Shown here: piece by piece, positions 38,588 to 64,000 of the stretch | How positions within the stretch are numbered: the first letter of the stretch is position 1 | How the letters are laid out: the number at the start of each line of letters is the position of its first letter | Assembly: GCF_000189635.1 (NCBI RefSeq) | Contig: NW_002476417.1 | Coordinates: 496,001-560,000 of the forward strand | Reading direction: 5' to 3' | DNA length: 64,000 nucleotides | Origin: Tetrahymena thermophila SB210 | Lineage: Eukaryota > Ciliophora > Oligohymenophorea > Hymenostomatida > Tetrahymenidae | Translations under genes and position numbers: made by a program | The notes under the pieces: generated by a model | Told to the model about the DNA's origin: nothing | Databases searched by the model: none | Seen by the model: only the letters and a program-made list of their open reading frames with translations

Positions 38588-38754
38588 GCCTTTTTCAAGG
38601 CTACATACACGAATGCTAATAAGATTATAATAAAAAATATAACTTGGGGGTTTTAAAAATATTTTATACTAGATTGAATTCAAAAGTATTTATATTTGTA
38701 AGATAAACATTGTAAGATAAGTAAAAAAGTTATTGAGAATGTAAAAAAAAAGTT

Positions 38755-39596: not shown

Positions 39597-42500
39597 ATGG
39601 TTTTGATAAAACTTGCTATAATTTGCACCTATTTGCTACTCATATTAAAATGCTAAATCATTTATTCTGATGAAGTTCCAATAGTGTATTTTCAATAAAA
39701 TATTTTGCTTTTTAAATATGGAGAAGATACTTATTAAGGCTCATAAATAATTGATTATTCAGCCAAATAATTTTAATAAATTCCTATTGTAATTCTAGGA
39801 ATAGAATTTTATAATAATTTATGGAATCCTTCAAATGGAGTAGATTTTGTACTTTCAGCATCATAAATAACAAAAACTAGTTGTACAGTTTAAACAGCTC
39901 GTAATAATGATAGCAAATTAGCTGGTATTTCTGTTAGTGCTTTAGTTATAGATACTTCATAATTTCCTTTTTTTATTAAAAATGATTAATAAATTTAAAA
40001 TATACATTTTACAAATTATGTTTATTCAAAGGTATATACCTTCTCTTCTGATATTCAAAATCAAAGTAATAAATGTGTTTCTGTTATATTAACAGGTTGG
40101 AAATCAGCTTATGATTCTTCAAATAAAATTTTCGCTCTAACTATTTAAGTGATTAACTTAACGGATTCTGGATATACTATTTAGATATCAACAGCTCAAG
40201 ACTCATAATAAATAATCAATGTATCTTTTGCTGTATTAGAATACATCAAAAATCCTCCAACTAGTGTATATGGAATAGTTTCAAATTATGATACTCAATA
40301 CTAATAACCAACAACTTAAAATTGTTTCTTCAATGATTAGTGTTCAAATTCTTAAAGATTCTTTCCTGTCTAATTTAATGTTTTCATACAAAACTCTCCA
40401 CCCTCAGGAAATTATCAGAATTTTTTTGTTTCTTTAAACTAATTATACTTCAATACAGCATATGACGGTTAAGATTTAAGAATTAGTGTCATAAATTAGC
40501 CACTCTCATCAAATAAAATATAGTATCAATATTCCGTTTGGGATGGTGCTTAATGTTTAGGAGCTACATCAACAGCCTTATACTTTTATAAAAGACCTTG
40601 TCCAAATAATTAATTTATAAATATTAACTCTAATAGTTGTTCTACTATTTGCTAAATTTAAGATCCTTCAAATAGCTCTACATGCTTAGATTGTCCTTCT
40701 GGATAGTATTTTTTATAAGACTAGAATGTATGCTAAGCAACTTAACCTATTGGTTATTATTGCTAAGTACCTAACACATAATTTAATTTTAGCGTTTGCT
40801 AAAATTGTAAAATTTCTAATTGCTAATTATGTTCATAAAATTCTAGTTAATTTACTTGCACTTAGTGTGTAAGTTAGTATTTTTTATACAATAACTAATG
40901 CTAATAAACATAACCTTCAAATACATTTTGTGATACTTAAAGTTATATTTGTAGTAAATGCTTAGATCCAGGTTGTTTAACTTGTAGCGATCCTAGTTAA
41001 TCATCTCCTTAGTGCTTAACTTGTGATACTAAATAAAAATAAATTTTATATTAAGGGAAATGTTATTCTCAAAGTTCTCCTCCTAATAATACCTTTTGTG
41101 ATTGGAACAAATTAGTATGCTTTTAATGTAGTGATAATAACTGTCTTTCTTGTAGTGACCCTGCTAAGTCACCATAAATTTGCAATAAGTGTGTACCAAA
41201 CTAATCTTTGATTTTATTTTAAGGTAAATGTTATAACTAGAATAACCCACCTCCTAACACGTATTGTGATTGGACAAAATTAACATGTTCTTTATGTACT
41301 GATATTAATTGTCTTACTTGTTCTGATCCTAGTATATCACCTTAATAATGCTTAAAATGTGATGTATACTAAAAATAAGTTCTTTATTAAGGTAAATGCT
41401 ACAATTAGAATAACCAGCCATCAAACACATTTTGTGATTGGAATTTATTATAATGTAGCAAATGTAATGATTCTAGATGTCTCTTTTGCAGTGATCCTAA
41501 TTTACCTCCTTAATTATGTTTATAATGTGATACTAGCTTATAAAAGTTAATACTATATTAGGGTAAATGCTTTAGCTAAAGTGATCCTCCTCCCTAAAAT
41601 ACATTTTGTGATTGGGACAAATTATAATGTTCTAAGTGTGATGATAACTAATGTTTTACTTGTAGTGATCCTAATAAAGCATCTTAAATATGCTTATCAT
41701 GTGATTCTAGCTAATAATAAATTCTTTATTAGGGTAAATGTTTTAACAAGAATAATCCTCCACCAAATACTTTTTGTGATTGGAATAAATTATAATGTAC
41801 TTAATGTACAGATTCTAGTTGCTTAGCTTGTAGTGATCCTACATAACCTCCATAAAAATGCTTATTATGTGATGCTAGTAAAAAGATGGTCCTCTTCTAG
41901 GATAAGTGCTATTCTTAAAGCTCTCCTCCTCCAAACACTTTTTGTGATTGGGACAAATTACAGTGTAACTTGTGTATGAACAAAAATTGTTAAACATGTA
42001 GTGATCCCAGTTAATCTCCTCAAGTATGCCTGTAATGTAATACTAGGATGATTTTATATGAAGGTAAATGTTATTGTGGAATAGGATTTTATTTTGATGA
42101 AAACAATAAATGCAGCAAAAATTGTAAAGAGAGTTGCTAATTTTGTTTAAATAGTAGTGATTGTGATAAATATTCAGATAATCGAGTTTATTCTGATAAT
42201 CAATGTGATTATTCTTGTTCAAAATGTTCTATACCCAATAAAAACTATGGATGTCTAGCATGTAGCTCAACAACTCGCTAGTTTGAATAAATGACAGGGT
42301 CATGCTTTTGTAAAGATGGGTATAGTGATGTAGGTGTTCCTGACTGCTAAAATGATAATAATCTTAAACCATAACAGTAAATTTAAACTGCAAGCTTCAA
42401 AATTTTATAAGGATTATTTATATTATATTTTCCATAACTTTTAATAAATATACATCCGTTTACTGATAGCTTTATTTATTAGATTTAATCACTGGGAAAC

Positions 42501-43532
42501 CTTTACTTTGCAAACCGAAATAATACTTAAATTTTGTATAAATCATTTGCAGCATTTAATTTTGTTAATATTTATTACTAATCATCAGAAGCAGATGATG
42601 TAAATGATATTTAGTATATTGTAGGAATAAAATATAAATTGATTATAGATAAGCTTGTTTCACAGAATTTAATTTTTCTCTCTGTTCCGATAGTTTTATT
42701 TAGTCTTTTAGCAGGAATTGTTTTACTATTTAGGAGTAAAATCAATTCATCTTTTGCAAAAAGTTATTTTCTTGGAAATGCTTAATTGAAATTAATAAGA
42801 ATAACAAGTAACTACTTTTTAGTAAATATATTTCTGAATGTGAGCCATCTTTCTTAGATGGATTTAATCTCTTTTGTCCTATTAGGAATTTTAACACCAA
42901 TTTACTTAGTGAATTTATTTGTAACCTTCAAAAAATCAAAAGACATAGATTTAAATACCTTTTTATATTTGCACCACAATTTAGATGTAAATAAATCTTT
43001 CAATAAATACTTTTGGCTGTTGCTCGAAATAAAAAAAATAATATTAATTATTTGCTTATCATTTTGTCCTATTAAATATTATCTCTTTATTATTTTAAGT
43101 ATCTCGATTTTATTTTGTTTGGCACTTGTCAAGTACAAACCCTTTCTTGATTGCAGAAGAGATTATATCTATTTGATATTTACTGAATTAATGATGATTA
43201 TACTTTGCATTTTTCCTTTGCTAATTCTCCTGATAGATGACTATTCCTAAACATGCAATCTAACAAATATAGCTAATATCACTATAATAATATATGTGAT
43301 ATTTTAATTTATTATAACTTTAGAATATATAATCAGAAAGTTAATAAATTATTCAAAGGATTTAAATAAATAAAAACTAATCAATAATAAATCTTATGTA
43401 GTTGAAATGGCTTTAGAAATTAATTTAGATAACTTAGATAGAATTCTGAATACTTCTAGGACAAGCAATAAATTCCTAAAAAGTAAATTTAAGTAAAAAG
43501 CTTAAATCAGTACACAAAGCTTTTAGATTTGA
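39597..43532 (+). CDS. Array gene A1: CDW-repeat surface protein with type-A membrane module
   Basis: Intronless, 1,311 residues. Signal peptide MVLIKLAIICTYLLLILKC. Residues ~60-150 (IPIVILGIEFYNN ... ISVSALVID) and ~255-345 (FNVFIQNSPPSGN ... SVWDGAQCLGATS) form two beta-rich domains. The first recalls an H-type lectin fold by its IPxVILGI...ITKTSCTV pattern; this is tentative. Cysteine-rich from ~330 to 920, with six ~56-residue units built on GKCYxQxxPPxNTFCDWxKLxCxxC...CLxCSDP, then different cysteine units (CFCKDGYSD). The type-A membrane module has about five segments (LIFLSVPIVLFSLLAGIVLL near 1024; others near 1087, 1150, 1190 and 1225). A Gln/Lys-rich tail ends at TGA 43530-43532. 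Predicted surface receptor or adhesin; ligand unknown. Nearly identical in layout to the gene at 50202. Confidence 0.85.
41055..42060 (+). repeat. CDW cysteine-repeat array, six units (gene A1)
   Basis: Six tandem coding units of about 160-170 bp starting near 41055, 41222, 41391, 41561, 41731 and 41901. Each begins with a ggtaaatg-like string and contains a ttttgtgattgg-like core coding for FCDW. The spacing is nearly constant because units vary little in length. Confidence 0.85.
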
Positions 43533-43849
43533 ATAAGAAATTAAAAGAATAAAATATACTATTTCAACAAAAAATAATGACATAATCCCTAAATATATAA
43601 ATAAATAATAAAGTTAATAAAATATTATAAAAAATATTAACAATTAAATTCTACAGTTATTAAAATATTTAAATAAAAAATAATTTATTGAAGATATAAA
43701 ACTAGTTTTTTTATTTTCAAAATTAATTATTTATAATTATTACACTTTATTAAATCAAAAATTTAACATATATTAAGTTGGTTTTTTTGGTCTGAGAAAA
43801 ATCAAAAGGTATATTTTAAATAAATTTGGTTTTTTATTGATAAATTATT
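43533..43849. other. 3' flank of array gene A1
   Basis: About 300 bp after A1. It resembles the 3' flank of A2 (54135-54430), for example ttgaagatataaaact and a ttaagttgg followed by a T-run, so the duplicated unit extended past the stop codon. No gene is present. Confidence 0.55.
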
Positions 43850-44758
43850 TAATAAAATTCATTGATATAAACTTAATTATTTATCAATCTTTTACAGTGT
43901 ATGAATGCTATTACAACTAACAACAATATATATTTAAATTTATAATATTTAATAATATATAATTATATTTATTTTTTTATCTTACTAAACAAATTTATTT
44001 GAAAATTAATTATTTTATTATATTTTATAAAAATGTTAACTTGGCAAAAATATAAATTAATCTATTTTAGTTTTAATTGGATGATGTAGAAAAAAATTTA
44101 TTTAGAAATTGTGGTAATAAATAGTTTAATTTGCAAATAATAAATTTTATTAATTAATTTACTTCAAATAATTCATGGAATTTAAGCCTATTAATTTACT
44201 GTAATATTGATATGTGATTACAAATAAATAGAAATTAGGTCAAAAACATTATAATTAAGTACGATAATGCATTCTCTTATAGGAAAATTATTAATCAATT
44301 TATTAATCATGATACACAATTTCATACTTTCTTTCAAAACAGATTTTGCCTTAGAGCATTTTAATACAAATTTGAATATCATTATAAAAAATTTTAATAA
44401 AATAAATAGATATAATTACTATTCTATATTTAATAAGAATAAATAACCATTTTTTATAGTAGAACAATGATAATATTATATTTAAAATCCTTTGAAATTT
44501 TTGAAAATGGATATAAATAGCTAATTAATTACGTATTTCATATTATTATAATGAGGGTAAAAATTAAATAATATACTTTAATAAAATTTGAAATTTAGGA
44601 TTTTTTTCTGCTTTAATTTAAAATCTCTACTTTTTTCTGTTTTCAAGGTCCCTGTTGATTTCTAATTTTTAGTGCTTCTTCACTTTATTATCTGAAAGAT
44701 AAAATAAAAAAAATACTAAATACAAAAACAAAAAGAATCAAATTTAAATAAAAACAAT
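43850..44758 (+). promoter_or_regulatory. Type-B upstream block (copy 1)
   Basis: DNA before array gene B1 that resembles the DNA before B2 (56770-57774) and before the last gene (61850-62905). Shared stretches include tttaataa near the left end, tatgaatgctatt, attcatggaatttaa and aaaattttgaaaatgg-like strings. It differs from the type-A upstream blocks except in the last ~100 bp. It presumably contains the B promoter. Confidence 0.6.
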
Positions 44759-47700
44759 ATGGTTTTAATAAAACTTGCTATAATTTATACCCATTTGTTA
44801 CTCATATTAAAATGCTAAATTACTTATACCGACTAAGTTCCAATAGTCTATTTTCAATAAAATATTTGGCTTTTTAAATATGGAGATGATACTTATTTAG
44901 GCTCATAAATAATTAATTATTCAGACAACTCATTTTAATAAATTCCAATTGTAATACTAGGAATAGAATTTTACAATAATTTTTGGAATCCTTCCACAGG
45001 AGTAGATTTTGTACTTTCAGCAGCAGATATAACAAAAACTAGTTGTAGAATTAAAACAGCTCGTAAAAATAATAGCGTATTATTTGGTATTTCTGTTAGT
45101 GCTTTAGTTATAGATACTTCATAACTTCCTTTTTTTATTAAAAATGATTAATAAATTTTAAATATACAATTTACAAACTATGTTTATTAAAAGGTATATA
45201 CCTTTTCATCTAATATCCAAAATCAAATTAATAAATGTGTTTCTGTTATATTGACAGGTTGGAAATCAGCTTATGATTCTTCTAATAAAGTTTTCGCTCT
45301 TACTATTTAAGTGGTTAAAATAACAGATTCTGGATATACTATTTAGATATCAACAGCTCAAGATTCATAATAAATAATTAATGTATCTTTTACTGTATTA
45401 GAATACATCAAAAATCCTCCAGCCAGTGTATATGGAATAGTTTCAAATTATGATACTCAATACTAATAACCAACAACTTCAAATTGTTTCTTCAATGACT
45501 AGTGTTCTAATTCTTTAAGGTTCTTTCCTGTCTAATTTAATGTTTTCATACAAAACTCTCCACCCTCAGGAAATTATCAGAATTTTTTTGTTTCTTTAAA
45601 CTAACTATACTTCAATACAGTATAAAACGGCTAAGATTTAAGAATTAGTATAATAAATTAGCCACTTTCTTCAAATAAAATATAATATTAATACTCAGTT
45701 TGGGATGGAGCTTAATGTTTAGGAGCTACATCAACAGCCTTATACTTCTACAAGAAAACTTGTCCAAATAATTAATTTATAAATATTAATTCTAATAGTT
45801 GTTCTTCTATTTGCTTGATTTAAGATCCTTCAAATAGCTCTAATTGTTTTGATTGTCCTTCTGGATAATATTTTTTATAAGATTAAAATCTATGCTAAGC
45901 AACTTAACCAAATGGTTATTATTGCTCAATTCCGAACACATAATATAATTTTAATGTTTGCTAAAATTGTAACATTTCTAATTGCAAATTATGTTCATAG
46001 AATTCTAATTAATTTACTTGCACTTAGTGTGTAAATTAGTATTTTTTATACAATAACTAATGCTAATAAACATAACCTTCAAATACATTTTGTGATACTT
46101 AAAGTTATATTTGTAGTAAATGCTTAGATCCAGGTTGTTTAACTTGTAGCGACCCTAATTAATCATCTCCTTAATGCTTAACTTGTGATACTAAATAAAA
46201 CTAAATTTTATATAAAGGGAAATGTTATTCTCAAAGTTCTCCTCCTAATAACACCTTTTGTGATTGGAACAAATTAGTATGCTTTTAATGTAGTGATAAT
46301 AACTGTCTTTCTTGCAGTGACCCTGCTAAGTCACCATAAATTTGCAATAAGTGTGTACCAAACTAATCTTTGATTTTATTTTAAGGTAAATGTTATAACT
46401 AGAATAACCTACCTCCTAACACGTATTGTGATTGGACAAAATTAGCATGTTCTTTATGTACTGATAGTAATTGTCTTACTTGTTCTGATCCTAGTATATC
46501 ACCTTAATAATGCTTAAAATGTGATGTAAACTAAAAATAAGTTCTTTATTAAGGTAAATGCTACAATTAGAATAACCAGCCATCAAACACATTTTGTGAT
46601 TGGAATTTATTATAATGTAGCAAATGTAATGATTCTAGATGTCTCTTTTGCAGTGATCTTAATTTACCTCCTTAATTATGTTTATAATGTGATGTTAGCT
46701 TATAAAAGTTAATACTATTTGAGGGTAAATGCTATAGCTAAAATGATCTTCCTCCCTAAAATACCTTTTGTGATTGGGAAAAAATATAATGTTCTAATTG
46801 TGTAGATAAAAAATGTTTAAGTTGCAGTGATCCTAATAAACCACCTTAAATATGCTTATCTTGTGATTCTAGCTAATAATAAATTCTTTATTAGGGTAAA
46901 TGTTTTAATAAGAATAATCCTCCATCAAATACTTTTTGTGATTGGAATAAATTATTATGTACTTAATGTAATGATTCTAGATGTCTCTTTTGTAATAATC
47001 CTGATTCCCCACCATAGATTTGTTTATCATGTTAATTTAACTCAAACTATATTTTATAAGAGGGAAAGTGCATATAAAATTGTTAATAAATATAAAACTA
47101 AGAAAATCAAGAATGCTCCTAAAATTAAATTATAGAGATATAAGAAACATATTAACTCAACAATGATTCAAATTATCAAAAGTACTAAAATTTAGTAGTA
47201 GGGTCCTCTGTTTTAGCTGTTACATCTCTAGGTATCAATTTTTCAAAATAATTTTTAACTATTCAAAAGGTTAACTTTATTTTAGTCATAGATATTATGT
47301 TTAACCAGTCATTATATTCCTTCTTAAAATCCATATAAGGATAAAATTTGATAAATCAACTTGTAGAATTTAATTTTTTAAACAAAATATTTTAAGAATC
47401 TTAAAATAGCTTAGATAATTAAATACTAACATTAAAAATTGGTTAAACTAGTATTATTTATAATGCAGGAGGAATGATTACATTCATGTTCATCAGTTTG
47501 TTAGTTATTTCTCCAACATTTATTTTGAGCTATAAAATATCACTTTAAAATAATATTTAAAGTACAACTAATGAGCCTACAATAAAAGAAAAAATAATCA
47601 GATAATACCAAACTTTTTCATTAAACATGATTAATTTCTTTAACGATTTGATGTTTCAAATAGGATTCTTTGAAATATCTCTTCAAATAATAAATTTAGC

Positions 47701-48532
47701 TTAAAGCTAATATGAGATTGAATTAACTGCTATTAAAATTATATTAATTATTATTATTGGAATATATTTATTAGCAATTTTTGCAGTATACTATTTCATA
47801 TTAAACAAAGAAGAAAATATTTTAAAAAATGGCAAGAAGGATAACCAAAAAACATTTTAATAAGCATTTTATACTATTTTATTAAATGAAAAAATAGAAT
47901 AAAATTTTTTTTAAAGAAATTTTAAGTTATTTTAAATTATAATTGAAAATCTACTTATTCCTATATTTATAGTATCATTTTATAAATCATATCAAGCATA
48001 AACACTAGTATGCGCTATAATATAATTAATACTATTCGTGATATCTTTAAAATTTAGACCTTTTTAAGATTTATTAGACAATATTTAACTAATCTTAGAT
48101 TCTTTTCTTTGGATGATAATATTTTGCTTACTATTTGCATTAGGAATTAAAACTAATTTGCTATTTGCTTATCATGAATAAAAGTAAAGTATTTTGCCTG
48201 ATATAAATAAAATTAGTACTTGTATTATTATCATTTTAGAAATTATTCTCTTCTTGACACCTCTTATCTAAATATTTAAATTAATAAAAATGGTACCAAC
48301 TTTGATTAAAAAGATTAAAATGTACTTGAATGAAAAAAAATAGCAAAAGAAAGTAGATTCTTTAGGCTAGTAATATCTAGAACTGATTGAAAAAAGTTAA
48401 AATTAGAAAAAGGAAAATGTTTAGTACTGTAATTAAAATTAAATGTAATATAAATTACAATTAAATTAGCAATAAATTTAATAAAACAAATTGAGGAAAA
48501 ATAATAAATCATTAAATATTTATTAAATTTGA
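44759..48532 (+). CDS. Array gene B1: CDW-repeat surface protein with type-B membrane module
   Basis: Intronless, 1,257 residues. The signal peptide, two N-terminal domains and cysteine repeats are nearly the same as in A1, often base for base. Only five CDW units are present, and after the last one (47060) the sequence departs completely from A1. The rest carries a short cysteine/Gln-rich linker and a type-B membrane module of about seven segments. Landmarks are NAGGMITFMFISLLV, LLNEKIEQNF, PFQDLLDNIQLILDSFLW and FALGIKTN, all with counterparts in the 26166-30436 gene. The tail is Lys/Gln-rich and ends at TGA 48530-48532. It is therefore a natural chimera of the A-type ectodomain and a membrane module of the other local family. 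Role unknown. Confidence 0.85.
46217..47060 (+). repeat. CDW cysteine-repeat array, five units (gene B1)
   Basis: Five coding units of ~168 bp starting near 46217, 46386, 46553, 46722 and 46892. The first four track A1 units 1-4 closely. The fifth begins like A1 unit 5 but its second half (GATTCTAGATGTCTC-like) resembles unit 3, so it looks like a hybrid unit. Confidence 0.78.
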
Positions 48533-49339
48533 TTTTTATATTATGAAGATTTAACAAAAGACTTGTTTAGAAGAGAATTAAGAAATATACTTAACAAAAT
48601 ATAAAAAAACAAATAATAAAGATTTGTCTTTAAAAATTAAACTTGGTAAAAAAAGAGTTTTACAATTTAAATTAATAAAAAAATACATGTTATTGTAAAT
48701 TTTATAACTTTAGGTGAATTATATAAGGTGATAAAAAAAGTATTTTTCCTATTACTTAATTGAATAATATTTAGTATTAATTTTTTAATATGATTCCTGC
48801 ATAATATTAATTACAATACATATAAATAAATTGAGTTTTTCATTAGAATTCTTAATTAGATTTTTTAAATAAATTTTACTCCAGAACAAATAAGGTTACA
48901 TCAATAATATTTTCCCTTATTGATTAAGTATGATGTGGATTTTCTTTTTGTTAATATAATTGTAATTTTAATTCAAATTAGAAATAAATGTTAAAAAAAG
49001 CTAAATTAATTTTATTTTAATTTTTTAAAAAAAATATCATTATAAATCTATTATTTAAATTTAAATAATTATTATATACACGCATATCAAAGAAATAGCA
49101 GATTCAAAAGAATACATTTTAAGTAAAGGTACTTATATTTTTCTAAATACACTTTAACTATTAAGTAAATTAAAAAAAAATATTTTTTTAAATTAATAAT
49201 AAGAGTTATTAAATCAAAAACAACAAATTTTAAAATATTTACATTTATAAAATAAGCATTTTAAAAGAAGCGAATGATTTCCTCAAGAAAAGGATATTGA
49301 TATAACTTTTACTATTGTGAATGAAATAAATAAAGTTAA
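48533..49339. other. 3' flank and spacer after B1
   Basis: About 800 bp of A/T-rich DNA. Its left part resembles the DNA following B2 (61207 onward), for example gaagatttaacaaaaga and ttagaagagaattaag. No gene is seen. Confidence 0.5.
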
Positions 49340-50201: not shown

Positions 50202-53200
50202 ATGGTTTTAATAAAACTTACTATAATTTTTTTTCATCTGTTATTCATGTTAAAGTGCTAAATTACTTATTCTGACCAAGTTCCAATAGTGTATTTTCAA
50301 TAAAATATTTGGCTTTTTAAATATGGAGATGGTACTTATTAAGGCTCATAAACAATTGATTATTCAGCCAACTCATTTTAATAAATTCCAATTGTAATAC
50401 TAGGAATAGAATTTTACAATAATTTTTGGAATCCTTCCACAGGAGTAGATTTTGTACTTTCAGCAGCAGATATAACAAAAACTAGTTGTACAGTTAAAAC
50501 AGCTCGTAATAATAATAGCTTTTTAGTTGGTATTTCTATTAGTGCTTTAGTTATAGATACTTCATAATTTCCTTTTTTTATTAAAAGTGATTAATAAATT
50601 AATAATATACAGTTTAAAAATTATGTTTATTAAAAGGTATATACCTTTTCATCTAATATCCAAAATCAAAGTAATAAATGTGTTTCTGTTATATTAACAG
50701 GTTGGAAATCAACTTATGATTCTTCTAATAAAGTTTTCGCACTAACCGTTTAAGTGGTTAGTATAACAGATTCTGGATATACTATTTAGATATCAACAGC
50801 TCAAGATTCATAATAAATAATTAATGTATCTTTTACTGTATTAGAATACATCAAAAATCCTCCAACCAGTGTATATGGAATAGTTTCAAATTATGATAAT
50901 CAATACTAATAACCAACAACTTAAAATTGTTTCTTCAATGATTAGTGTTCTAATTCTTAAAGATTCTTTCCTGTCTAATTTAATGTTTTCATACAAAACT
51001 CTCCACCCTCAGGAAATTATCAGAATTTTTTTGTTTCTTTAAACTAACTATACTTCAATACAGCATATGACGGCTAAGATTTAAGAATTACTATCATAAA
51101 CTAGCCACTTTCATCAAATAAAATATAGTATTAATACTCAGTTTGGGATTCATCTTAATGTTTAGGAGCTACATCAACAGCCTTATACTTCTACAAGAAA
51201 ACTTGTCCAAATAATTAATTTTTAAATATTAACTCTAATAGTTGTTCTTCTATTTGCTTGATTTAAGATCCTTCAAATAGCTCTAATTGTTTAGATTGTC
51301 CTTATGGATAATATTTTTCATAAGATTAAAATCTATGCTAAACAACTTAACCAAATGGTTATTATTGCTCAATTCCGAACACATAATATAATTTTAATGT
51401 TTGCTAAAATTGTAAAATTTCTAATTGCAAATTATGTTCATAGAATTTTAATTAATTTACTTGCACTTAGTGTGTAAGTTAGTATTTTTTATACAATAAC
51501 TAATGCTAATAAACATAACCTTCAAATACATTTTGTGATACTTAAAGTATTTGTAGTAAATGCTTAGATCCAGGTTGTCTAACTTGTAGCGACCCTAATT
51601 AATCATCTCCTTAGTGCTTAACTTGTGATACTAAATAAAACTAAATTTTATATTAAGGGAAATGTTATTCTCAAAGTTCTCCTCCTAATAACACATTTTG
51701 TGATTGGAACAAATTAGTATGCTTGTAATGTAGTGATAATAACTGTCTTTCTTGCAGTGACCCTGCTAAGTCACCATAAATTTGCAATAAGTGTGTACCA
51801 AACTAATCTTTAATTTTATTTTAAGGTAAATGTTATAACTAGAATAACCCACCTCCTAACACGTATTGTGATTGGACAAAATTAGTATGTTCTTTATGTA
51901 CTGATAGTAATTGTCTTATTTGTTCTGATCCTAGTATGTCACCTTAATAATGCTTAAAATGTGATGTAAACTAAAAATAAGTTCTTTATTAAGGTAAATG
52001 CTACAATTAGAATAACCAGCCATCAAACACATTTTGTGATTGGAATTTATTATAATGTAGCAAATGTAATGATTCTAGATGTCTCTTTTGCAGTGATCCT
52101 AATTTACCTCCTTAAATATGTTTATAATGTGATACTAGCTTATAAAAATTAATACTATATGAGGGTAAATGTCTTAGCTAAAATGATCCTCCTCCCTAAA
52201 ACTCATTTTGTGATTGGGACAAATTATAATGTTCTAAGTGTGACGATAACAAATGTTTAAGTTGCAGTGATCCTAATAAACCACCTTAAACATGTTTATC
52301 ATGTGATTCAAGCTAATAATAAATTCTTTATTAGGGTTAATGTTTTAACAAGAATAATCCTCCACCAAATACTTTTTGTGATTGGAATAAATTATAATGT
52401 ACTTAATGTACAGATTCTAGTTGTTTAGCTTGTAGTGATCCTACATAACCTACATAAAAATGCTTATCATGTGATGCAAGTAAAAAGATGGTCCTATTTT
52501 AGGATAAGTGCTATTCTTAAAGCTCTCCTCCTCCAAACACTTTTTGTGATTGGGGCAAATTACAGTGTAATTTGTGTATGAACAAATATTGTTATACATG
52601 TAGTGATCCCAGTTAATCTCCTCAAGTATGCCTGTCATGTAATTCTAGAATGATTTTATATGAGGGTAAATGCTATTGTGGAATAGGATTTTATTTTGAT
52701 GAAAACAATAAATGCAGCAAAAATTGTAAAGAGAGTTGCTAATTTTGTTTAAATAGTAGTGATTGTGATAAATATTCAGATAATCGAGTTTATTCCGATA
52801 ATCAATGTGATTATTCCTGTTCAAAATGTTCTATACCCAATAAAAATTATGGATGTCTAACATGTAGCTCAACAACTCGCTAATTTGAATAAATGACAGG
52901 GTCATGCTTTTGTAAAGATGGGTATAGTGATGTAGGAGCTCCTGACTGCTAAGATGATAATAATCTTAAACCTTAACAGTAAATTTAAACTGCAAGCCTC
53001 AAAATTTTATAGGGATTGTTTATATTATATTTTCCATAACTATTAATAAATATACATCCATTTACTGACAGCTTCATTTTCTAGATTCAATCACTGGGAA
53101 ACCTTTACTTCGCAAACCGGAATAACACTTAAATTTTGTATAAATCATTTGCAGCTTTTAATTTTGTAAATATTTATTACTAATCATCAGAAGCAGATGA

Positions 53201-54134
53201 TGTAAATGATGTTGAGTATATGGTAGGAATAAAATACAAATTAATTATAGATAAGCTTGTCTCACAGAATTTAATTTTTCTCTCTGTCCCAGTAGTTTTA
53301 TTTAGTATTTTAGCAGGAATAGTTTTATTATTTAGATATAATATCAAATCTTCTTTTGCACAAAATTATTTCCTTGGAAATTTTTAGTCTAAATTAATAA
53401 GAATAACAAGTAACTACTTTTTAGTAAATATATTTCTGAATGTGAGCCATCTTTCTTAAATGGATTTAATCTCTTTTATCTTATTAGGAATTTTAACACC
53501 AATTTACTTAGTTAACTTATTTGTAACCTTCAAAAAATCAAAAGACATAGATTTAAATACCTTTTTATATTTGCACCACAACTTAGATGTAAATAAATCT
53601 TTCAATAAATACTTTTGGTTTTTGCTCGAAATAAAAAAAATAATACTAATTATTTGCTTATCTTTTTGTCCTATTAAATATTATCTCTTTATTATTTTAA
53701 GTATCTCGATTATATTTTGTTTGGCACTTGTCAAGTACAAACCCTTTCTTGATTGCAGAAGAGATTATATCTATTTGATATTTACTGAATTAATGATGAT
53801 TATTCTTTGCATTTTTCCTTTGCTAATTATACTGATAGACGACTATTCCTAAACATGCAATCTAACAAATATAGCTAATATCACTATAATAATATATGTG
53901 ATATTTTAATTTATTATAACTTTAGAATATATAATTAGAAAGTTAATAAATTATTCAAACGATTTAAATAAATAAAAATTAATCAATAGTAAATCTTATG
54001 TAGTTGATATGGCTTTAGAAATTAATTTCGATAATTTAGATAGAATTCTGAATTGCTCTAGCACAAGCAGTAGATATAGAAAAAGTAAATTTAAGTAAAA
54101 AGCTTAAATCAGAACACAAAGCTTTTAGTTTTGA
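50202..54134 (+). CDS. Array gene A2: CDW-repeat surface protein with type-A membrane module
   Basis: Intronless, 1,310 residues, one codon shorter than A1 overall, with a 3-nt loss near 51549. Signal peptide, two N-terminal domains, six CDW units, the CFCKDGYSD cysteine block and the five-segment type-A membrane module all follow A1 closely. The segment at 53460-53852 (MDLISFILLGILTPIYLVN) differs from A1 by only a few residues. It ends SKFKQKAQIRTQSF-Q-F with TGA at 54132-54134. The high similarity to A1, and its place before a B-type gene in both cases, point to duplication of an A-B pair. Function as for A1. Confidence 0.85.
51656..52664 (+). repeat. CDW cysteine-repeat array, six units (gene A2)
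   Basis: Six coding units of ~168 bp corresponding one-to-one to those in A1. The fifth-unit start reads gggttaatg rather than gggtaaatg, turning the usual GKC into a form without that cysteine (GLM/GLC region at 52334). Confidence 0.75.
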
Positions 54135-54440
54135 ATAAAAGATTAAAAATAAAATATTCTTTTTAACAAAAAATAATGGAATGAGCCATAAAAAAATAAA
54201 TAAAAAATAAATTTAATATAAATCAAGTAAATAGGAATTTATAAAAAATTCCAAAAATTAAATTCATCAGTTTTTTAAATATTTAAATAAAACATAATGA
54301 ATTGAAGATATAAAACTTGTTTTTTTTATTTTAAAATTCATTATTTATAATTATTACATATTATTCAATAAATAGTTAGTATGGTCTCACTATTAAGTTG
54401 GTTTTTTTTTTCGATCTGAGGAAATCCAAAAGTAGATTTC
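54135..54440. other. 3' flank of array gene A2
   Basis: Matches the 3' flank of A1 up to about 54430 (gatctgaggaaatccaaaag versus gtctgagaaaaatcaaaagg). After this the two spacers diverge, which marks the left edge of the extra DNA in the A2-B2 spacer. No gene is present. Confidence 0.5.
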
Positions 54441-54899
54441 AAATTAGTTTTGTTTTTTTGTTCTTTATCAATAAAAATTTTAAACCTCGTATTATAAAAA
54501 ATTAAAATTAATAATGTTAAGCTGTGATTAAAAAACTTGTATAAGCTTATTAATCTATGCCAGGAGTATTGCCACAAATAGGTATACAGCCTGATTTATT
54601 TGCATTTACTTTAATACTTATTTTATTACAATCACTGCAGTTAATTTTTTACTTCTTTTTAAAAGTTTATCCAAAAAAAAGTTGGCTAATTTAATTGAAT
54701 AAAAAATTTTTTTTTGAATAATTATTAAATTATGAATTACTTTAAATAAAAATTTTTATAAAAATACATAAAAGGTATTTTATATAAATATAATAATAAA
54801 ATTTATTTCTTACCCCTTATTTTAACAAAATAAAATAAATTTTAATACACTTATAAACAAGCATATTTTTATTTTTTTTATAACACTTTATTTATAAGC
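54441..54899. other. Left part of the extra DNA in the A2-B2 spacer
   Basis: About 460 bp absent from the A1-B1 spacer. A/T-rich; I could not read transposase sequence or a terminal inverted repeat in it, although the element's end would be expected here. Confidence 0.4.
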
Positions 54900-55893
54900 A
54901 AAAGATTCTTTTGTTAGATGTTAGAGACTATTTCTATCTGTGATCAAAGACAGATCAAATATCATATTTACATCTATTAATTTTGATCATTTCAATAATT
55001 TTTTATCTTATTAGGTACAACTCTCAAAGTTTCGATTCTAAATCATGTTATCCTTCATATTTTATTCAAAATTGGACATGATTTGGTCAAGACTATGAAA
55101 TATATGAAGAATTTAGTGTGAAATTGGCTTTGATAAAGTTGAAGCCACTTCTGTAACTAAATGGAATGACTAAAACAATTCTTAAAATAGCCATAAATTT
55201 TTTCATTCATTTATTGAAGTTATAAATTTATTTCCTGATTTACCTTATGTAGCTAGGAAGTATTTTATTGATTCTTCTAATTAAATTGCTCTTTGTATCA
55301 TTAAAAAGGTACTGTTTCATCTATTGGGAATATCTAATATAGGCTTTAGCTATGAGTATTAAATAGATTCTTAAATTTCAAGAAATTCTTAAAGTTTTTT
55401 TGTATTTTTTCTTATTTTTTAAAACAAACATCTAATAGTAGAAAACTATTTTAAATTATTTGTTTAAATTTTCAATTCCAGTCTTAACGACTAAGTTGAT
55501 TATATGAGCTGAACACCTTATTTGATATACACGTAAACTATTATATTGACCAATGATAGCTATAAAATCTTAAACTCCTTTAACAATATTGGATCTATTT
55601 TCAGATATTAAAGAAATAATTTTATTTTATAAGTGGAAATAAATCTTCAAATAGCAAAAAATTTATTTTTATTTATTATCAATTATTTATTACACATTTT
55701 AATCAATATTCGAGATTTTAAACATCATTATCAATGTCATCTTAAATACTTTTTATTTTTAATACAATTATTTACTTTAACAATATTTTTATTTTCTTCC
55801 TCTTGTTTTCTTAAATGTTGGTTCTTCGATTTTATTGGTTTCTTTTTCATCAAATTAGTCAAGAAGATCAGAATTTTCAATATTTTTTTAATT
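54900..55893 (-). pseudogene. Decayed hAT-family transposase
   Basis: Read on the minus strand this carries hAT transposase landmarks in the right order. SENRSNIVKGVQDFI with IRCSAHIINLVVKTG (55620-55450) equals the family's TDNxxNxVKA ... CxAHxLNLVV block. LDIPNR-stop-NSTFLMIQRAI (about 55335-55285) equals the LDVxTRWNSTYxMLxRA block. Then NE-stop-KNLW, and ISHQILHIFHSLDQI matches the later helical region. It is broken: there is a frameshift between the first two blocks (55380-55430), TGA stands where the family has Trp in RWNST (55317-55319) and again in the NEWK-like position, and other TGAs follow. The Asp normally leading the first block reads Glu. Hence not an active transposase gene. 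Transposon ends and target duplication were not found. Confidence 0.72.
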
Positions 55894-56613: not shown

Positions 56614-57774
56614 ATTATATATTCAAATGAACCTTACAAAAGATAAATAAAAATAAAATGAAATGGTTCTAGTTAATTGATTTTTTAATTAAAAAGTATA
56701 TTATCATTTCTAAAGAAGTCTAGTAATCAAATTATTGAATTTTTATTTTTCAGAAAATTGGCAAATTATTTAATAACATTCTTATTGATATAAACTTAAT
56801 TAGTTATCAATCTTTTACAGCATATGAATGCTATTGCAATTAACAACAATATATGTTTAAATCCATAATATTGAATAGTTTATTGCAGTAATAAATAGAA
56901 AATATAAAATTATATTTGTTTTTTTTATTTTATCAAAATAATCTATTCATTTTAAAATTAGCTATTTTATTATATATTATGAAAAAATTTTAGCTTAGCA
57001 AAATATAAATTAATCCATTTTATTTTCGTTTCTTTTGGATGATGTGAAAAAATTTATTATCCTTTGTTTATATCTAAATATTTATACTATAACTTAATTA
57101 AATTAACAAAATTTGTGGTATGAAATTGTTTAATTTCCAAATGATAGATTAGAATGATTGATTAATATACTTTTAAATTAATTTCTTCAAATGATTCATG
57201 GAATTTAAATGTATTAATTTATTGTAATATTGATATATAATATAAATAAATAGAAATTAGATCAAAAACAATAGTAAGACAATACGTACTCATATACGAA
57301 AATTATAAATCAATTTATTAATCATGATCCACATTTTCTTAGTTTCTTTCAAAACAAATTTTGTTCTACAGTATTTTGATACTAATTTGAATATAATTTT
57401 TAAAAATTTTAATAAGATATAAATTGTTATTCTATATATAAATAAGAAGAAATAATAGTTTTTAAAGTAGAACAATGATAATATTATACTCATCTATTAT
57501 TTAAAGTACTTTGAAAATTTTGAAAATGGGTATAAATAAATAATTATATTTTCATATTATTATTATGAGGGTAAAAACTAAATAATATTCTTCTATTAAA
57601 TTTGAATTTAAAGATTTTAAAATATCTTTTCTTTTCTGCGCTTTATGCTATGTATTTTTTCAAGCTCCCTGCATATTTCTAATTTTTAGTTTTTTTTCAC
57701 TTTATTATTTGAAAGATAAATAAAAGAAATAATAAATTCAAAATAAAAAAAAATAAAATTAAAATAAAAACAAG
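56614..57774 (+). promoter_or_regulatory. Type-B upstream block (copy 2)
   Basis: DNA before gene B2. From about 56770 it matches the block before B1; from about 56600 it matches the block before the last array gene (61690-62905), including aaatgaaccttacaaa and tttttcagaaaattg. It presumably contains the B2 promoter. Confidence 0.58.
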
Positions 57775-60700
57775 ATGGTTTTAATAAAACTATTTATAAT
57801 TTGTACTCATTTGTTATTCATATTAAAATGCTAAATTACTTATTCTGACTAAGTTCCAATAGTCTATTTTTAATAAAGTATTTGGCTTTTAAAATATGGA
57901 GATGGTAATTATTAAGGCTCATAAACCATTGATTATTCAACTAAGCTATTTTAATAGATTCCAATAGTAATACTAGGAATAGAATTTTATAATAATTATT
58001 GGAATCCTGTAAACGGAGTAGATTTTGTACTTTCAGCAACATAAATAACAAAAACTAGTTGTACAGTTTAAACAGCACGCAATAATAATAGCTAATTAGA
58101 TGGTATTTCTGTTAGTGCTTTAGTTATTGATACTTCATAATTTCCTTTTTTTGTTAAAAATGATTAATAAATTTAAAATATACAATTTACAAATTATGTT
58201 TATTAAAAGGAGTATAGTTTTTCATCTAATATCCAAAATCAAAGTAATAAATGTGTTTCTGTTATATTGACAGGTTGGAAATCAGCTTATGATTCTTCTA
58301 ATAAAGTTTTCGCTTTAACTATTTAAGTGGTTATAATAACAGATTCTGGATATACTATTTAGATATCAACAGCTAAAGACTCATAATAAGTAATTAATGT
58401 ATCTTTTACTGTATTAGAATACATTTAAAATCCTCCAACCAGTATATATGGAATAGTTTCAAATTATGATACTCAATACTAGTAACCAACAACTTAAAAT
58501 TGTTTCTTCAATGATTAGTGCCCTAATTCTTTAAGATACTTTCCTGTCTAATTTAATGTTTTCATACAAAATTCTCCACCCTCAGGAAATTATCAGAATT
58601 TTTTTGTTTCTTTAAATCAACTATACTTCAATACAGTAAAAGACGGCTCAGATTTAAGAATTAGCATCATAAATTTGCCAGTTTCTTCAAATAAAATATA
58701 GTATCAATACTAAGTTTGGGATGGTGCTTAATGTTTAGGAGCTACTTCAACAGCCTTATACTTCTACAAGAAAACTTGTCCAAGTAATTAATTTATAAAG
58801 ATTAACTCTAATAGTTGTTCTTCAGTTTGCTAGATTTAAGATCCTTCAAATAGCTCTATATGCTTAGATTGTCCTTCTGGATAATATTTTTTATAAGATT
58901 AAAATATATGCTAAGCAACTTAACCAAATGGTTATTCTTGCTCAGTACCTAGCGCATAATTTAATTTTAAAGTTTGCTAAACATATAGAATTTCTAATTG
59001 TAAGAAATATGTATACAGTTCTAATTAATTTATTTGCACTAAGTGTGTAAGTTAGTATTTTTAACACAATAACTAATGCTAATAAACATAACCTTCAAAT
59101 ACATTTTGTGATAATCAAAGTTTTATTTGTAGTAAATGCTTAGATCCAGGTTGTTTAACTTGTAGCGACCCTAGTTAATCATCTCCTTAGTGCTTGACTT
59201 GTGATAAAAAATAAAACTAAATTTGATATTAAGGGAAATGTTATTCTCAAAGTTCTCCTCCTAATAACACATTTTGTGATTGGAATATATTATAATGTAC
59301 TTAATGTACAGATTCTAGTTGTAAAGCTTGTAGTGATCCTACATAACCTCCATAAAAATGCTTATCATGTGATGCAAGTAAAAAAATGGTTTTGTTCTCA
59401 GGTAAATGCTATTCTTAAAGCTCTCCTCCTCTCAATACTTTTTGTGATTGGAATAAATTAAAATGTACTTAATGTACAGATCCTAGTTGCTTAGTTTGTA
59501 GTGATACTGCATATCCTTCATAAAAATGCTTTTCATGTGATGTTAGTAAAAATATGGTCCTCTTCTAGGATAAGTGCTATTCTTAAAGTTCTCCTCCTCA
59601 CAATGCTTTTTGTGATTGGAATAAATTATTATGTACTTAATGTAACGATTCTAGATGTCTCTTTTGTAGCGATCCTAATTCCCCACCATAGATTTGTTTA
59701 TCCTGTTAAATTAACTCAAACTATATTTTAAAAGAAGGAAAGTGCTTATAAAATTGTTAATAAATATAAAGCGAAGAAAATGAAGAATGCTCCTAAAATT
59801 AAATTATAGAGATATAAGAAACATATAAACTCAACAATGATCCAAATTATCAAAAGTACTAAAATTTAGTAGTAGGGTCATCTGTTTTAGCTGTTACATC
59901 TCTAGGTACCAACTTTTCAAAATAATTTTTAACTATTCAAAAGGTTAACTTTATTTTAGTCATAGATATTATGTTTAACCAATCATTGTATTCCTTCCTA
60001 AAATCCATTTAAGGATAAAATTTGATAAATCAACTTGTAGAGATTAATTTTTTAAACAAAATATTTTAAGAATCTTAAAATAGCTTAGATAATTAAATAC
60101 TAACATTAAAAATTGGTTAAACTAGTATTATTTATAATGCAGGAGGAATGATTACATTCATATTCATCAGTTTGTTACTTATTTCTCCAGCTTTTATTTT
60201 GAGCTATAAAATATCACTTTAAAATAATATTTAAAATACAACTAATGAGCCTACAATAAAAGAAAAAATAATCAGATAATACCAAACTTTTTCATTAAAC
60301 ATGATTAATTTCTTTAATGATTTGATGTTTCAAATAGGATTCTTTGAAATAGCTCTTCAAATAATAAATTTAGCTTAAAGTTAGTTTGAGATTGAATTCA
60401 TTGCTATTAAAATTATATTAATTATTATTATTGGGATATATTTACTAGCAATTTTTGTAATATACTATTTCATATTAAACAAAGAAGAGAATATTTTTAA
60501 AAATGGCAAGAAAGATAACCAAAAAACATTTTAATAAGCATTTTATACTATTTTATTAAATGAATAAATAGAATAAAAATTTTTTTAAAGAAATTTTAAG
60601 CTATTTTAAATAATAATTGAAAATATACTTACCCCTATTTTTATAGTAGCATTTTACAAATCATTTCAAGCACAAACATTAGTATGCACTATAATATAAT

Positions 60701-61206
60701 TAATACTCTTAGTGATATCTTTAAAATTTAGACCTTTTTAAGATTTATTAGACAATATTTAACTAATCTTAGATTCTTTTCTTTGGATGATAATATTTTG
60801 CTTATTATTTGCATTAGGTATTAAAACTGATTTGCTATTTGCTTATTATGAATAAAAATAAAATATTTTACCAGATATAGATAAAATTAGTATTTGTATT
60901 ATTATTATTTTAGAAATTATTCTCTTCTTGAGACCACTTATCTAAATATTAAAATTGATAAAAATGGTACCAACTTTGATTAAAAAGATTAAACTATACT
61001 TGAATGAAAAGAAATAGAAAAAGAAAGTAGACTTTTTAAGCTAGTAATATCTAGAACTGATTGAAAAAAATTAAAATTAGAGCAAGTAAAATGTTTAGTA
61101 CTGTAATTAAAATAAAATATTATATAAATTACAATTAAATTAGTAATAAATTTAATCAAACAAATTGATGAAAAATAATAAATTATTAAGTATATATTAA
61201 ATTTGA
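57775..61206 (+). CDS. Array gene B2: short CDW-repeat surface protein with type-B membrane module
   Basis: Intronless, 1,143 residues. N-terminal half as in the other array genes. Only three CDW units remain (NTFCDWNILQC, TFCDWNKLKC, FCDWNKLLC), making it about 114 residues shorter than B1. The linker and type-B membrane module follow B1 closely: NAGGMITFIFISLLL, a changed loop LLNEQIEQKF against LLNEKIEQNF, and PFQDLLDNIQLILDSFLW. The tail ends at TGA 61204-61206. The last CDW unit and everything after match B1, while units 1-2 contain sequence most like the fifth and sixth A units, consistent with loss of units by unequal exchange. Function as for B1. Confidence 0.84.
59233..59737 (+). repeat. 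CDW cysteine-repeat array, three units (gene B2)
   Basis: Three coding units of ~168 bp starting near 59233, 59400 and 59569. Compared with B1, two units are missing. The first unit fuses a unit-1 start to a unit-5-like second half (cagattctagttg). Confidence 0.78.
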
Positions 61207-61849
61207 TTTAATATTGAGAAGATTTAACAAAAGACTTATTTAGAAGAGAATTAAGAAATATATTTGTTAAAATATAAAAAAATAAAAAAATAAAGTATAG
61301 TCTTAAAAATTAAACTTGGATCAAAAAGAATATTAAAATTGAAATTAATAAAAAATATATGTATTATAGTAAATTTTATAATTTAAGGTAAATTCTAATA
61401 AAAGGTGATAAAAAAAATAATTTAACCAATTCAACATTTAAAAAAAAAAATATATTCATTTTTGCAAGATTTAAATTTAAATTTGATTTAAAGAATTTAC
61501 AAGATTTATTATTTAATAAAATTATTAATAATTTATTAGACTGTTTACAAAATAATATTTGGTTAGTTCGAAATCAATTATTAGTTGAAATATAAATGAA
61601 TAATTTTAAATTAAATTAAAAAAAAAAGTTTTCAAGTTAATTTTTGAAAATCTTTTGATGTTTTTCCAATTTTATTGATTTGCATAGCAACCATTTCATA
61701 TTATTTCCATATTATATTATTTAAATGAACCTTACAAAGATAGATATAAATAAAATTAGATGGTTCTAGTGAATTTCTTTTTTAATTAATAAGTATATAA
61801 TCATTTCTCAAGGAGTTGAATAATCATATTATTGAATATTTATTTTTCA
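61207..61849. other. 3' flank and spacer after B2
   Basis: A/T-rich spacer. The first part matches the flank after B1. Near 61690 it joins DNA shared with the right edge of the A2-B2 spacer, including a broken version of the start of the 239-residue ORF (atggaaataatatga on the minus strand). No intact gene is present. Confidence 0.5.
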
Positions 61850-62905
61850 GAAAATTGACAAAATATTTAATAACACTCTTGTTGTTATAAATGTAATTAT
61901 TAATCAATTTTCCCAATATATGAATGTTATTCCAACTAACAAAAATATATATTTACATCTATAATATTGAATATATTGCAATAATATATAATATCTAATC
62001 ATATTTGTTTTTCTATCTCACTAAAACAATCTTTTCATTTTAAAATTAATTATTTTTATGTAAATTATAAAAATGTTACATTGGCAGAACAGGTTTCAAT
62101 TTATCTAAAATTTCGAAATAACTCTTATTATAGATAGCACTTCCACAAATTTAAAGGAAAGTTTCTTTTGGGTGATGTAGAAAAAAATATATTATCCTTA
62201 GTTTATATCTAAATATTTATACCATAACTTAATTAAATTAACAAAAATTGTGGTAAGAAATAGTTTAATTTCCAAATGATTGATTAATATACTTTTAAAT
62301 TAATATATTCAAATAATTCATGGAATTTAAACGTATTAATTTACTGTAATATTGATATGTATTACAAATAAATAGAAATTAGGTCAAAAACATTAAAACT
62401 TAGTAAGATAATATATACTCATATACAAAAATTATAAATCAATTTATTAATCATGATCCACAGTTCCTTTCAAAACAAATTTTGTCTTAGAGCATTTTGA
62501 TACTAATTTGAATATCATTTTTTAAAATTTTAATAAAATAAAAAGATATGAATTGTTATTCTATATATAATAAGAAGAAATAATGGTTTTTTAAAGTAGA
62601 GCAATCATAATATAATACTCATCTATTATTTAAAGTTCTTTGAAAATTTTTAAAATGGATATAAATAGATAATTATGTTTTCATATTATTATAATGAGGG
62701 TAAAAACTAAATAATATTCTTCTATAAAAATTGAATTTAAAGATTTTAAAATATCTTCTCTTTTCTGATTTTTTTGCTAAGCATTTTTTCAAGATCCCTG
62801 CATATTTCTAATTTTTAGTTTTTTTTCACTTTATTATTTGAAAGATAAAATAAAAGAAATAATAAATACAAAAACAAAAATAGATCTAAATTAAATAAAA
62901 GCAAG
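61850..62905 (+). promoter_or_regulatory. Type-B upstream block (copy 3)
   Basis: Matches the blocks before B1 and B2 rather than those before A1 and A2 (attcatggaatttaaacg, aatcatgatccaca, tcatctattatttaaagt). It directly precedes the last gene of the window and predicts that this gene is type B. Confidence 0.58.
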
Positions 62906-64000
62906 ATGATTTTTATAAAACTTGCTATAATTTGTACCCATTTTTTTTTCATATTAAAATGTCAAATTAGTTATACTGACTAAGTTCCAATAGTCTATTT
63001 TCAATAAAATATTTGGCTTTTTAAATTTGGAGATGGTACTTATTAAGGCTCATAAACTATTGATTATTCAGCCAACTCATTTTAATAGATTCCAATTGTA
63101 ATACTAGGAATTTAATTTTACAATAATTAGTGGAATCCTTCCACAGGAGTAGATTTTGTACTTTCAGCAGCAGATATAACAAAAACTAGTTGTACAGTTT
63201 AAACAGCTCGTAATAATAATAGTATATTAGCTGGTATTTCTGCTAGTGCCTTAGTTATAGATACTTCATAATTTCCTTTTTTTATTAAAAGTGATTAATA
63301 AATTTAAAATATAAAATTTACAAATTATGTTTATTAAAAGGTTTATAGCTTTTCAACTAATATATAAAATCAAAGTAATAAATTTGTTTCTGTTATATTG
63401 ACAGGTTGGAAATCAGCTTATGATTCTTCTAATAAAGTTTTCGCTCTAACTATTTAAGTGGTTGGCATAACAGATTCTGGATATACTATTTAGATATCAA
63501 CAGCTCAAGATTCATAATAAATAATTAATGTATATTTTACTGTATTAGAATACATTTAAAATCCTCCAACCAGTATATATGGAATAGTTTCAAATTATGA
63601 TAAACAATACTAATAACCAACAACTTAAAATTGTTTCTTCAATGATTAGTGTTCTAATTCTTAAAGATTCTTTCCTGTCTAATTTAATGTTTTGATACAA
63701 AACTCTCCACCCTCAGGAAATTATCAGAATTTTTTTGTTTCTTTAAACTAACTTTACTTCAATACAGTATAAGATGACTAAGCTTTAAGAATTACTATCA
63801 TAAATAAGCCTATTTCATCAAATAAAATATAGTATCAATACTCAGTTTGGGATGGTGCTTAATGTTTAGGAGCTACATCAACAGCCATATACTTCTATAA
63901 GAAAACTTGTCCAAGTAATTAATTGATAAATATTAACTCTAATAGTTGTTCATCAGTTTGCTTGATTTAAGATCCTTCAAATAGCTCTATATGCTTAGAT
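62906..64000 (+). CDS. Fifth array gene, partial (cut by the right edge)
   Basis: ATG 62906-62908 opens a frame that stays free of TGA to the end of the window, 365 codons. The signal peptide (MIFIKLAIICTHFFFILKC) and both N-terminal domains match the other array genes with scattered changes, for example FGDGTYQGSQTIDYS and FVLSAADITKTSCTV. The window ends just where the cysteine-rich region begins (DPSNSSICLD). The C-terminal type cannot be read, but the upstream DNA is type B. The first two spacer types and gene order suggest this is a second B gene in a row. Confidence 0.84.

Follow-up and report, generated by a model that had tools for sequence, protein, structure and literature searches.

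A tandem array of nine genes for putative surface lectins begins within a 64,000-nucleotide stretch of Tetrahymena thermophila SB210 DNA (the window, bases 496001-560000 of contig NW_002476417.1) and continues downstream of it. Genes 1-6 have in common a cassette of ~2.4 kb, comprising a leader of ~101 nt, the lectin ectodomain and most of the cysteine-rich repeats, and this cassette is carried by genes that belong to three tail lineages, A1, A2 (gene 6) and B, and to two upstream-flank lineages, A and B. The common cassette, the type-specific flanks and tails, and the mosaic relationships between them are direct observations, and the genetics of the cassette is fairly well supported. The explanation proposed here, which we hold to be about evenly balanced between true and false, is that of a paired-receptor-like set, in which one lectin head would be placed behind different upstream regions and joined to different outputs, in a manner comparable to Siglec-11/16 of primates.

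The window belongs to the nuclear genome and is read with ciliate code 6, in which TAA and TAG specify glutamine and long uninterrupted frames result; with the bacterial code, no open reading frame (ORF) of 150 residues exists in the 64 kb. The GC content is ~17-28% per 2-kb interval, and tRNA and Rfam scans of the window gave no matches. In all, 134 kb around the array were examined, features outside the window being given in window coordinates; the contig has 819,503 bases, and the genome scope was 101 Mb in 445 contigs. The array lies on the contig labelled C130, the clusters used for comparison on C13, C116 and C346, and further lectin clusters on C10, C23 and others.

The original prediction described five genes in one orientation with a common ectodomain, near-identical even at silent sites, the first four of which would end alternately in two unrelated membrane modules. 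The five genes are indeed all on the forward strand, with starts at 39597, 44759, 50202, 57775 and 62906, and the ectodomains of genes 2-5 are 84.5-87.2% identical to that of gene 1 at the protein level. Behind a predicted signal peptide, each protein would have a lectin ectodomain of ~300 residues followed by cysteine-rich repeats and a multi-helix membrane module, and would end in a short cytoplasmic tail. The features of the array within the window, all on the forward strand, are the following (TM, transmembrane):

38731..39495, forward strand: A-type 5' flank of gene 1, matching the flanks of genes 3 and 6 and not those of the B genes
39496..41870, forward strand: common cassette in gene 1, from ~-101 through the lectin ectodomain and most cysteine-rich repeats
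39597..43532, forward strand: gene 1, A1 tail, 1311 residues, intact in code 6
39597..40604, forward strand: gene 1 signal peptide and lectin ectodomain (H_lectin at residues 55-114)
40605..42074, forward strand: gene 1 cysteine-rich repeats
42075..43529, forward strand: gene 1 A1 tail with C-terminal ILN motif (furin-like cysteine region 42075-42350, multi-TM module 42351-43529)
43836..44657, forward strand: B-type 5' flank of gene 2, matching the flanks of genes 4 and 5 and not those of the A genes
44658..47032, forward strand: common cassette in gene 2
44759..48532, forward strand: gene 2, B tail, 1257 residues, intact
47081..48529, forward strand: gene 2 B tail, multi-TM module
50202..54134, forward strand: gene 3, 1310 residues, intact, A1 tail at 52677-54128
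57775..61206, forward strand: gene 4, B tail at 59755-61203, with an in-frame TGA at 59224, cysteine losses and fewer repeats
62906..64000, forward strand: gene 5, the part inside the window; the gene extends to 67015, with its B tail at 65564-67012

Four further genes, all with A tails, were located by tblastn downstream of the window at 69880, 80692, 88257 and 94863 (genes 6-9), and all nine lie on one strand. The predicted alternation therefore holds for genes 1-4, which end A-B-A-B, and stops at gene 5, which ends B; with a tail order of A B A B B A A A A, strict alternation is rejected. Duplication of an A-B dimer is the simplest reading of the A-B-A-B start: 38731-43835 and 43836-48746 are adjoining units, of which the first (A) is found again at gene 3 and the second (B) at both gene 4 and gene 5. 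The number of repeats varies among the genes. Gene 4 is probably a pseudogene, with a TGA in frame at codon 484 (59224) and cysteines missing at about residues 400-415 that are kept in its relatives (alignment by eye); the judgement relies on the cysteine losses, as a lone TGA could be a sequencing error. Also present are a degraded A-type lectin pseudogene at ~76400-79300, outside the window, in which every one of the three frames contains several stops, and an intergenic element of ~520 bp found in two copies between array genes, at 54858-55378 and, outside the window, at 68034-68547 (83% identity).

The cassette has limits at both ends. Genes 1 and 2 are 92.2% identical at the DNA level across it (39496-41870 against 44658-47032, 2376 columns), and genes 2 and 3 are 94.0% identical over the same number of columns; chance does not yield kilobases of ~90% DNA identity. 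When the 600-nt 5' flanks of genes 1-6 are compared, the best match of all nine cross-type pairs spans just the last ~105 nt, whereas the six same-type pairs all match along nearly the whole flank; genes 2-6 and 4-6 show in addition a second short match, off register. At the 3' end, cross-type DNA identity ceases inside the final cysteine repeats, at position 41870 for gene 1 and 47032 for gene 2, beyond which the tails sort by type and the 3' flanks mostly do so, with some short cross-type 3' matches. The type-specific 5' flanks beyond ~-101 are a feature absent from the original prediction and, as the upstream regions differ by type, a B gene is more than an A gene fitted with another tail. 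Compared with sequence elsewhere, the A and B 5' flanks gave short weak matches only.

Within the cassette, relationships do not follow tail type. Synonymous divergence (dS) of the lectin ectodomain is 0.09-0.27 among genes 1-6 whatever their type, which bears out the predicted near-identity at silent sites, and the smallest values are cross-type: 0.09 for genes 2-3 and 0.11 for both genes 2-6 and genes 5-6. When the nearest relative was scored in 12 windows of the cassette for each of the six genes, with A1 and A2 both counted as A, it was of the other type in 49 of the 72 cases, of the same type in 13 and tied in 10. Gene 6 is discordant, as its A2 tail differs from those of genes 1 and 3 with a dS of ~1.4-1.5 and a nonsynonymous divergence (dN) of 0.23, yet its head is near-identical to theirs. 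Compared with gene 1, the gene 6 tail is about as distant as that of gene 7 (dN 0.23 and 0.20), and the ectodomain dN is 0.07 for gene 6 and 0.31 for gene 7.

Moreover, runs of identical sequence were evaluated by counting how many of 2000 permutations reached the observed run, a test uncorrected for the number of pairs. The first set consisted of 10 pairs without gene 4, and the second of 15 pairs over a shorter stretch, codons 1 to ~484. Among cross-type pairs, the run was reached in 0 permutations for genes 4-6, 3 for genes 1-2 and 6 for genes 3-5, with further runs in genes 5-6 (23 and 19 in the first and second set) and genes 2-3 (26 and 126). Between the A subclasses, the run of genes 1-6 was reached once in the first set and 1913 times in the second.

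In the head tree, for which C346 was chosen as outgroup, genes 1-6 form one group (98/99), followed by gene 7 and then by genes 8-9. In the tail tree, genes 2, 4 and 5 have their B tails joined first by that of a gene at 28928 (100/100) and then by C346 (98/96). One clade of all B-gene heads including those of C346 is rejected (approximately unbiased test, p-AU 0.0022), the B heads of the array nesting among A-gene heads. Most simply, then, the array B genes would owe their heads to the A-gene side rather than to a lectin-B ancestor like the C346 genes. From the discordance and the identical runs, we infer that the similarity of the ectodomains is maintained by gene conversion, although a single recent spread of the cassette would be a less probable alternative.

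As for the tails, the original prediction had them as modules of five (A) and seven (B) membrane segments with no recognisable similarity, a claim that fails at profile level. With tblastn, neither A nor B tail queries match the other family at E <1, but hhalign aligns the two profiles (14 A and 15 B sequences) with a probability of 95.1% and an E-value of 3e-8 over 76 columns. A second alignment pair (14 + 14) gave 67%, or 76% once trimmed, and 22 A against 15 B sequences gave 94% over 90 columns. The observed score was reached by none of 180 column-shuffled controls for the trimmed 14 + 14 pair and by none of 80 for the 22 A/15 B comparison, and reversed profiles remained below 1% probability. 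Against this homology, the best of 40 eight-column shuffles of the 22 A/15 B pair reached 80%, with a score of 49.9 against the 63.6 observed, so that the margin of the A/B profile score over the nearest control is modest; for the trimmed 14 + 14 pair, the best of 60 shuffles reached 22%, with a score of 35.5 against 47.3. Leaving out the array genes, 8 A against 10 B sequences gave 49% over 221 columns and 16 A against 11 B gave 78% over 91 columns (both unshuffled). The A and B tails are thus probably diverged homologues, and the notion of unrelated modules is rejected: the case for homology is good at the K-x-[KR]-P-[FY] region and in the helices next to it, and along the rest of the tail homology is probable, on weaker support. 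The difference in segment number was not upheld either, as the count varies with the hydropathy threshold and the segments correspond by eye.

The two types remain clearly different in composition. The A tails of the array carry a furin-like cysteine region that the B tails are without. Furthermore, a C-terminal ILN motif, predicted to be cytoplasmic, is found by pattern in 10 of the 11 A tails of C130 and C13, and by eye in the eleventh; at the C-terminal ends of the 15 B tails it never occurs, the only pattern match being elsewhere in one B row. Profiles of both tails gave no match in the PDB at E <=1, and the individual members gave scattered weak matches in Pfam, the best of them, to DUF3810 with an E-value of 0.001, coming from one of the 14 B members.

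H-type lectins typically bind sugars of the GalNAc type and are oligomeric. In the array, the Pfam family H_lectin (PF09458) matches approximately residues 50-114 of the ectodomain, above the curated cut-off of 24 bits in three of the four window proteins and below it, at 21.7, in that of gene 2; at E <=0.1, it is detected in 10 of 12 ectodomains. An ectodomain profile searched against the PDB returned one match only (E 0.35). Genome-wide, at least 57 H_lectin matches were obtained at E <=0.01, all above the cut-off, out of 62 candidates scored, with tandem clusters on C10, C116, C13, C23 and others; the figure is a lower bound, since it includes just four places on C130 and so misses most heads of the array. 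On C13 and C116, five of five and eight of 10 full A-like tails, respectively, are preceded on their own strand by an H_lectin match at a distance of 2-5 kb (by eye, excluding one fragment on C13 and two on C116), and three genes on C346 couple a related lectin head to a B tail, from which it follows that both combinations are old. Among the clusters compared (C130, C13, C116 and C346), only C130 has both; the tails of C10, C23 and the other lectin clusters were mostly left unassigned in this comparison.

Selection was estimated from the proportions of nonsynonymous and synonymous differences (pN/pS), for the ectodomain in the five intact genes 1, 2, 3, 5 and 6, where lectin 1-3 denote thirds set by us, Pfam supporting the first only. 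The ratio is 0.88 for lectin 1 (confidence interval, CI, 0.51-1.58), 0.43 for lectin 2, 0.31 for lectin 3, and 0.44 and 0.43 for the cysteine-rich regions. A contrast as large as that between lectin 1 (0.88) and the rest (0.41) arose in 34 of 2000 free shuffles and in 27 of 739 circular shifts, which is only suggestive of lectin domain 1 evolving fastest. For the tails, pN/pS comes to 0.19 in A1 (genes 1 and 3); in B it is 0.37 for the pair 2 and 5, and 0.54 (0.31-1.01) for the pair 4 and 5. Both tail types are therefore under purifying constraint, and near-identical ectodomains are, as had been predicted, joined to clearly different tails.

These observations could be brought together as follows. 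Conversion between neighbouring genes would overwrite the ~2.4-kb cassette across at least three tail classes, its tracts ending where homology ends, at ~-101 and, for A-B exchanges, within the last repeats; by halting at these limits, it would leave the A and B upstream regions and tails apart. Alike sugar-binding heads might then be exposed at the cell surface under two types of upstream region and signal through different membrane and cytoplasmic modules, A with the C-terminal ILN and B without, while lectin domain 1 would be tuned apart among the copies. Near-identical ectodomains on different tails, with a likeness apparently kept by conversion (judged from the discordance and the uncorrected runs), are what is expected of paired receptors, and the tails differ in both sequence and C-terminal motif. 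On this view the proteins would be displayed at the surface and act as lectins, the upstream flanks would contain promoters, and the outputs would differ. The original prediction thus stands in part as an observation. Its interpretation, one binding domain presented through two outputs or a paired set of partners, is supported in part, as regards the joining of near-identical ectodomains to different tails; the two-output or paired-partner function is conjectural.

Several points weigh against a paired-receptor-like set. The run of genes 3-5 falls to 58/2000 in the second set, and same-type runs are significant too (0/2000 for genes 2-5, 2 for genes 4-5 and 5 for genes 1-3); of these, the first-set runs of genes 2-5 and 1-3 adjoin the type-specific tails, and in the second set they stand at 789 and 181. 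The ectodomain tree does not reject genes 2, 4 and 5 as a clade of their own (p 0.092), nor genes 1, 3 and 6 (0.056). As the A and B tails are probably homologous, their outputs may differ only in degree; among the 17 A-family rows, six, from C10, C116 and weak relatives, are without ILN, and the structure predicted by AlphaFold for the B tail is of too low quality to be used (mean predicted local distance difference test, pLDDT, 42.4; predicted template modelling score, pTM, 0.30). The idea of one binding domain is weakened, as lectin 1 is the most divergent part of the ectodomains, so the heads may not bind one ligand. Gene 4, one of the three B genes, is probably dead. Finally, all the evidence comes from sequence and from predictions made on it.

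The strongest competitor, which is possible though less probable than the proposal above, is ordinary concerted evolution, by unequal crossing-over and conversion, of a repeat-rich tandem family, with the tails as passive hitch-hikers and no pairing. Such a process would find many sites of unequal exchange in the cysteine-rich repeats, which match themselves, and would fit the differing repeat numbers and the decayed copies (gene 4 and the degraded A-type copy at ~76.4-79.1 kb); moreover, among the fast-evolving genes of Tetrahymena, GFR-type cysteine-rich genes and tandem duplication are both frequent, according to the available part of PMC6564038. Passive tails sit less easily with the purifying constraint on both tail types and with the distinct upstream flanks that persist beside each of them. 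More doubtful is the capture of one B tail by an A gene followed by tandem duplication, youth alone accounting for the similarity. The last repeat and the junction are the same in all three B genes (by eye), tail dS is low and similar (0.18 for genes 1-3, 0.13 for genes 2-4), as fits duplication of an A-B dimer, the two units abut, and the tree admits a clade of B heads alone; what capture leaves unexplained are the B-specific 5' flank beyond ~-101, the cross-type nearest neighbours in most cassette windows and, as a particular strain, the near-identical head and old tail of gene 6. An assembly or sequencing artefact fusing A heads to B tails, for which near-repeats are a known hazard, is very improbable and was rejected, as the cassette copies differ at 5-9% of sites (10 of 15 pairs listed), the three B genes have one consistent junction but distinct flanks, and the 134 kb contain no N.

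The nearest analogue of the proposed set of paired lectins is the Siglec-11/Siglec-16 pair of primates, where, in the available parts of PMC5701461, lectin ectodomains are described as very alike through repeated gene conversion, with different signalling ends; a nonfunctional allele takes part in the exchange, and constraint on the converted exons is relaxed. The array resembles it in its alike lectin heads, its differing ends predicted to signal, and apparent conversion. It differs in that the Siglecs are Ig-like, inhibitory or activating and of primates, whereas the array encodes multi-TM H-type lectins of a ciliate, in at least three tail classes and known from genes alone; homology is not claimed.

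Within the alveolates, the CRMPs of Tetrahymena and Toxoplasma are surface proteins with cysteine-rich extracellular repeats and several C-terminal TM helices, proposed as contact sensors, and the TgCRMP complex contains a protein with an H-type lectin domain (PMC9670195, available parts). They are like the array proteins in cysteine-rich repeats followed by a C-terminal multi-TM module, a likeness of architecture, by description and not by sequence, that does not imply membership; no tandem array with a common head is described in those parts of PMC9670195. The mating-type proteins MTA and MTB, as partly available sources describe them, have a cysteine-rich furin-like (GFR) domain and five predicted TM helices, with conversion in MTB exons (PMC3608545, PMC10901506). 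Again by description, they have a cysteine-rich, multi-TM plan with common and variable halves. In MTA/MTB, however, the membrane half is common and the ectodomain variable, the genes are head-to-head and joining is programmed, whereas in the array the head is common, the tail variable and the direction single. A mating-type locus was rejected, as all nine genes lie on one strand and no head-to-head pair exists. Ser-type GPI-linked (glycosylphosphatidylinositol-linked) surface antigens are not known to have a multi-TM module, and the C-terminal parts of the array proteins, with at least five hydrophobic segments, do not fit this type. The GPI linkage of the Ser-type antigens is described in the available part of PMC4136848.

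In the literature on H-type lectins in Tetrahymena and ciliates, no description of this locus was found, which is weak evidence, as subscription journals were mostly outside the search, and within the same limited scope no ciliate paper on paired receptors was found; the paired receptors with conversion-linked heads described in the available parts of PMC5701461 are from vertebrate immunity. A bolder proposal, which on present evidence we consider rather unlikely, is that of a paired-receptor system in a single-celled eukaryote, in which one lectin head, kept alike by gene conversion and displayed under different promoters on three kinds of signalling tail, would let a single glycan cue, be it from self, a mate, prey or a microbe, evoke different responses. 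If true, a ciliate case would suggest that this arrangement arises wherever surface lectins need more than one readout, and a clonal single cell would allow paired receptors to be tested gene by gene. With at least 57 H-type lectin matches in the genome, the locus is also an entry to a large receptor family.

Directly upstream of the lectin array lies a cluster of B-tailed genes, with the following tails:

18549..19745, forward strand: B-family tail of an upstream cysteine-rich gene (ORF 16938-20060)
24055..25266, forward strand: B-family tail of an upstream cysteine-rich gene (ORF 22939-25605)
28928..30187, forward strand: B tail, 56% identical to that of gene 2, in an upstream gene that by eye probably has several exons

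The two cysteine-rich ORFs match the Pfam family VSP, that at 16938-20060 above the cut-off and that at 22939-25605 below it, and no H_lectin was detected in five ORFs of the gene at 28928. On the reverse strand, the window also contains an ORF of 1846 residues with an LVIVD-repeat match (2429-7969) and an ORF matching DUF1295 and steroid 5-alpha-reductase-type families (31550-32926).

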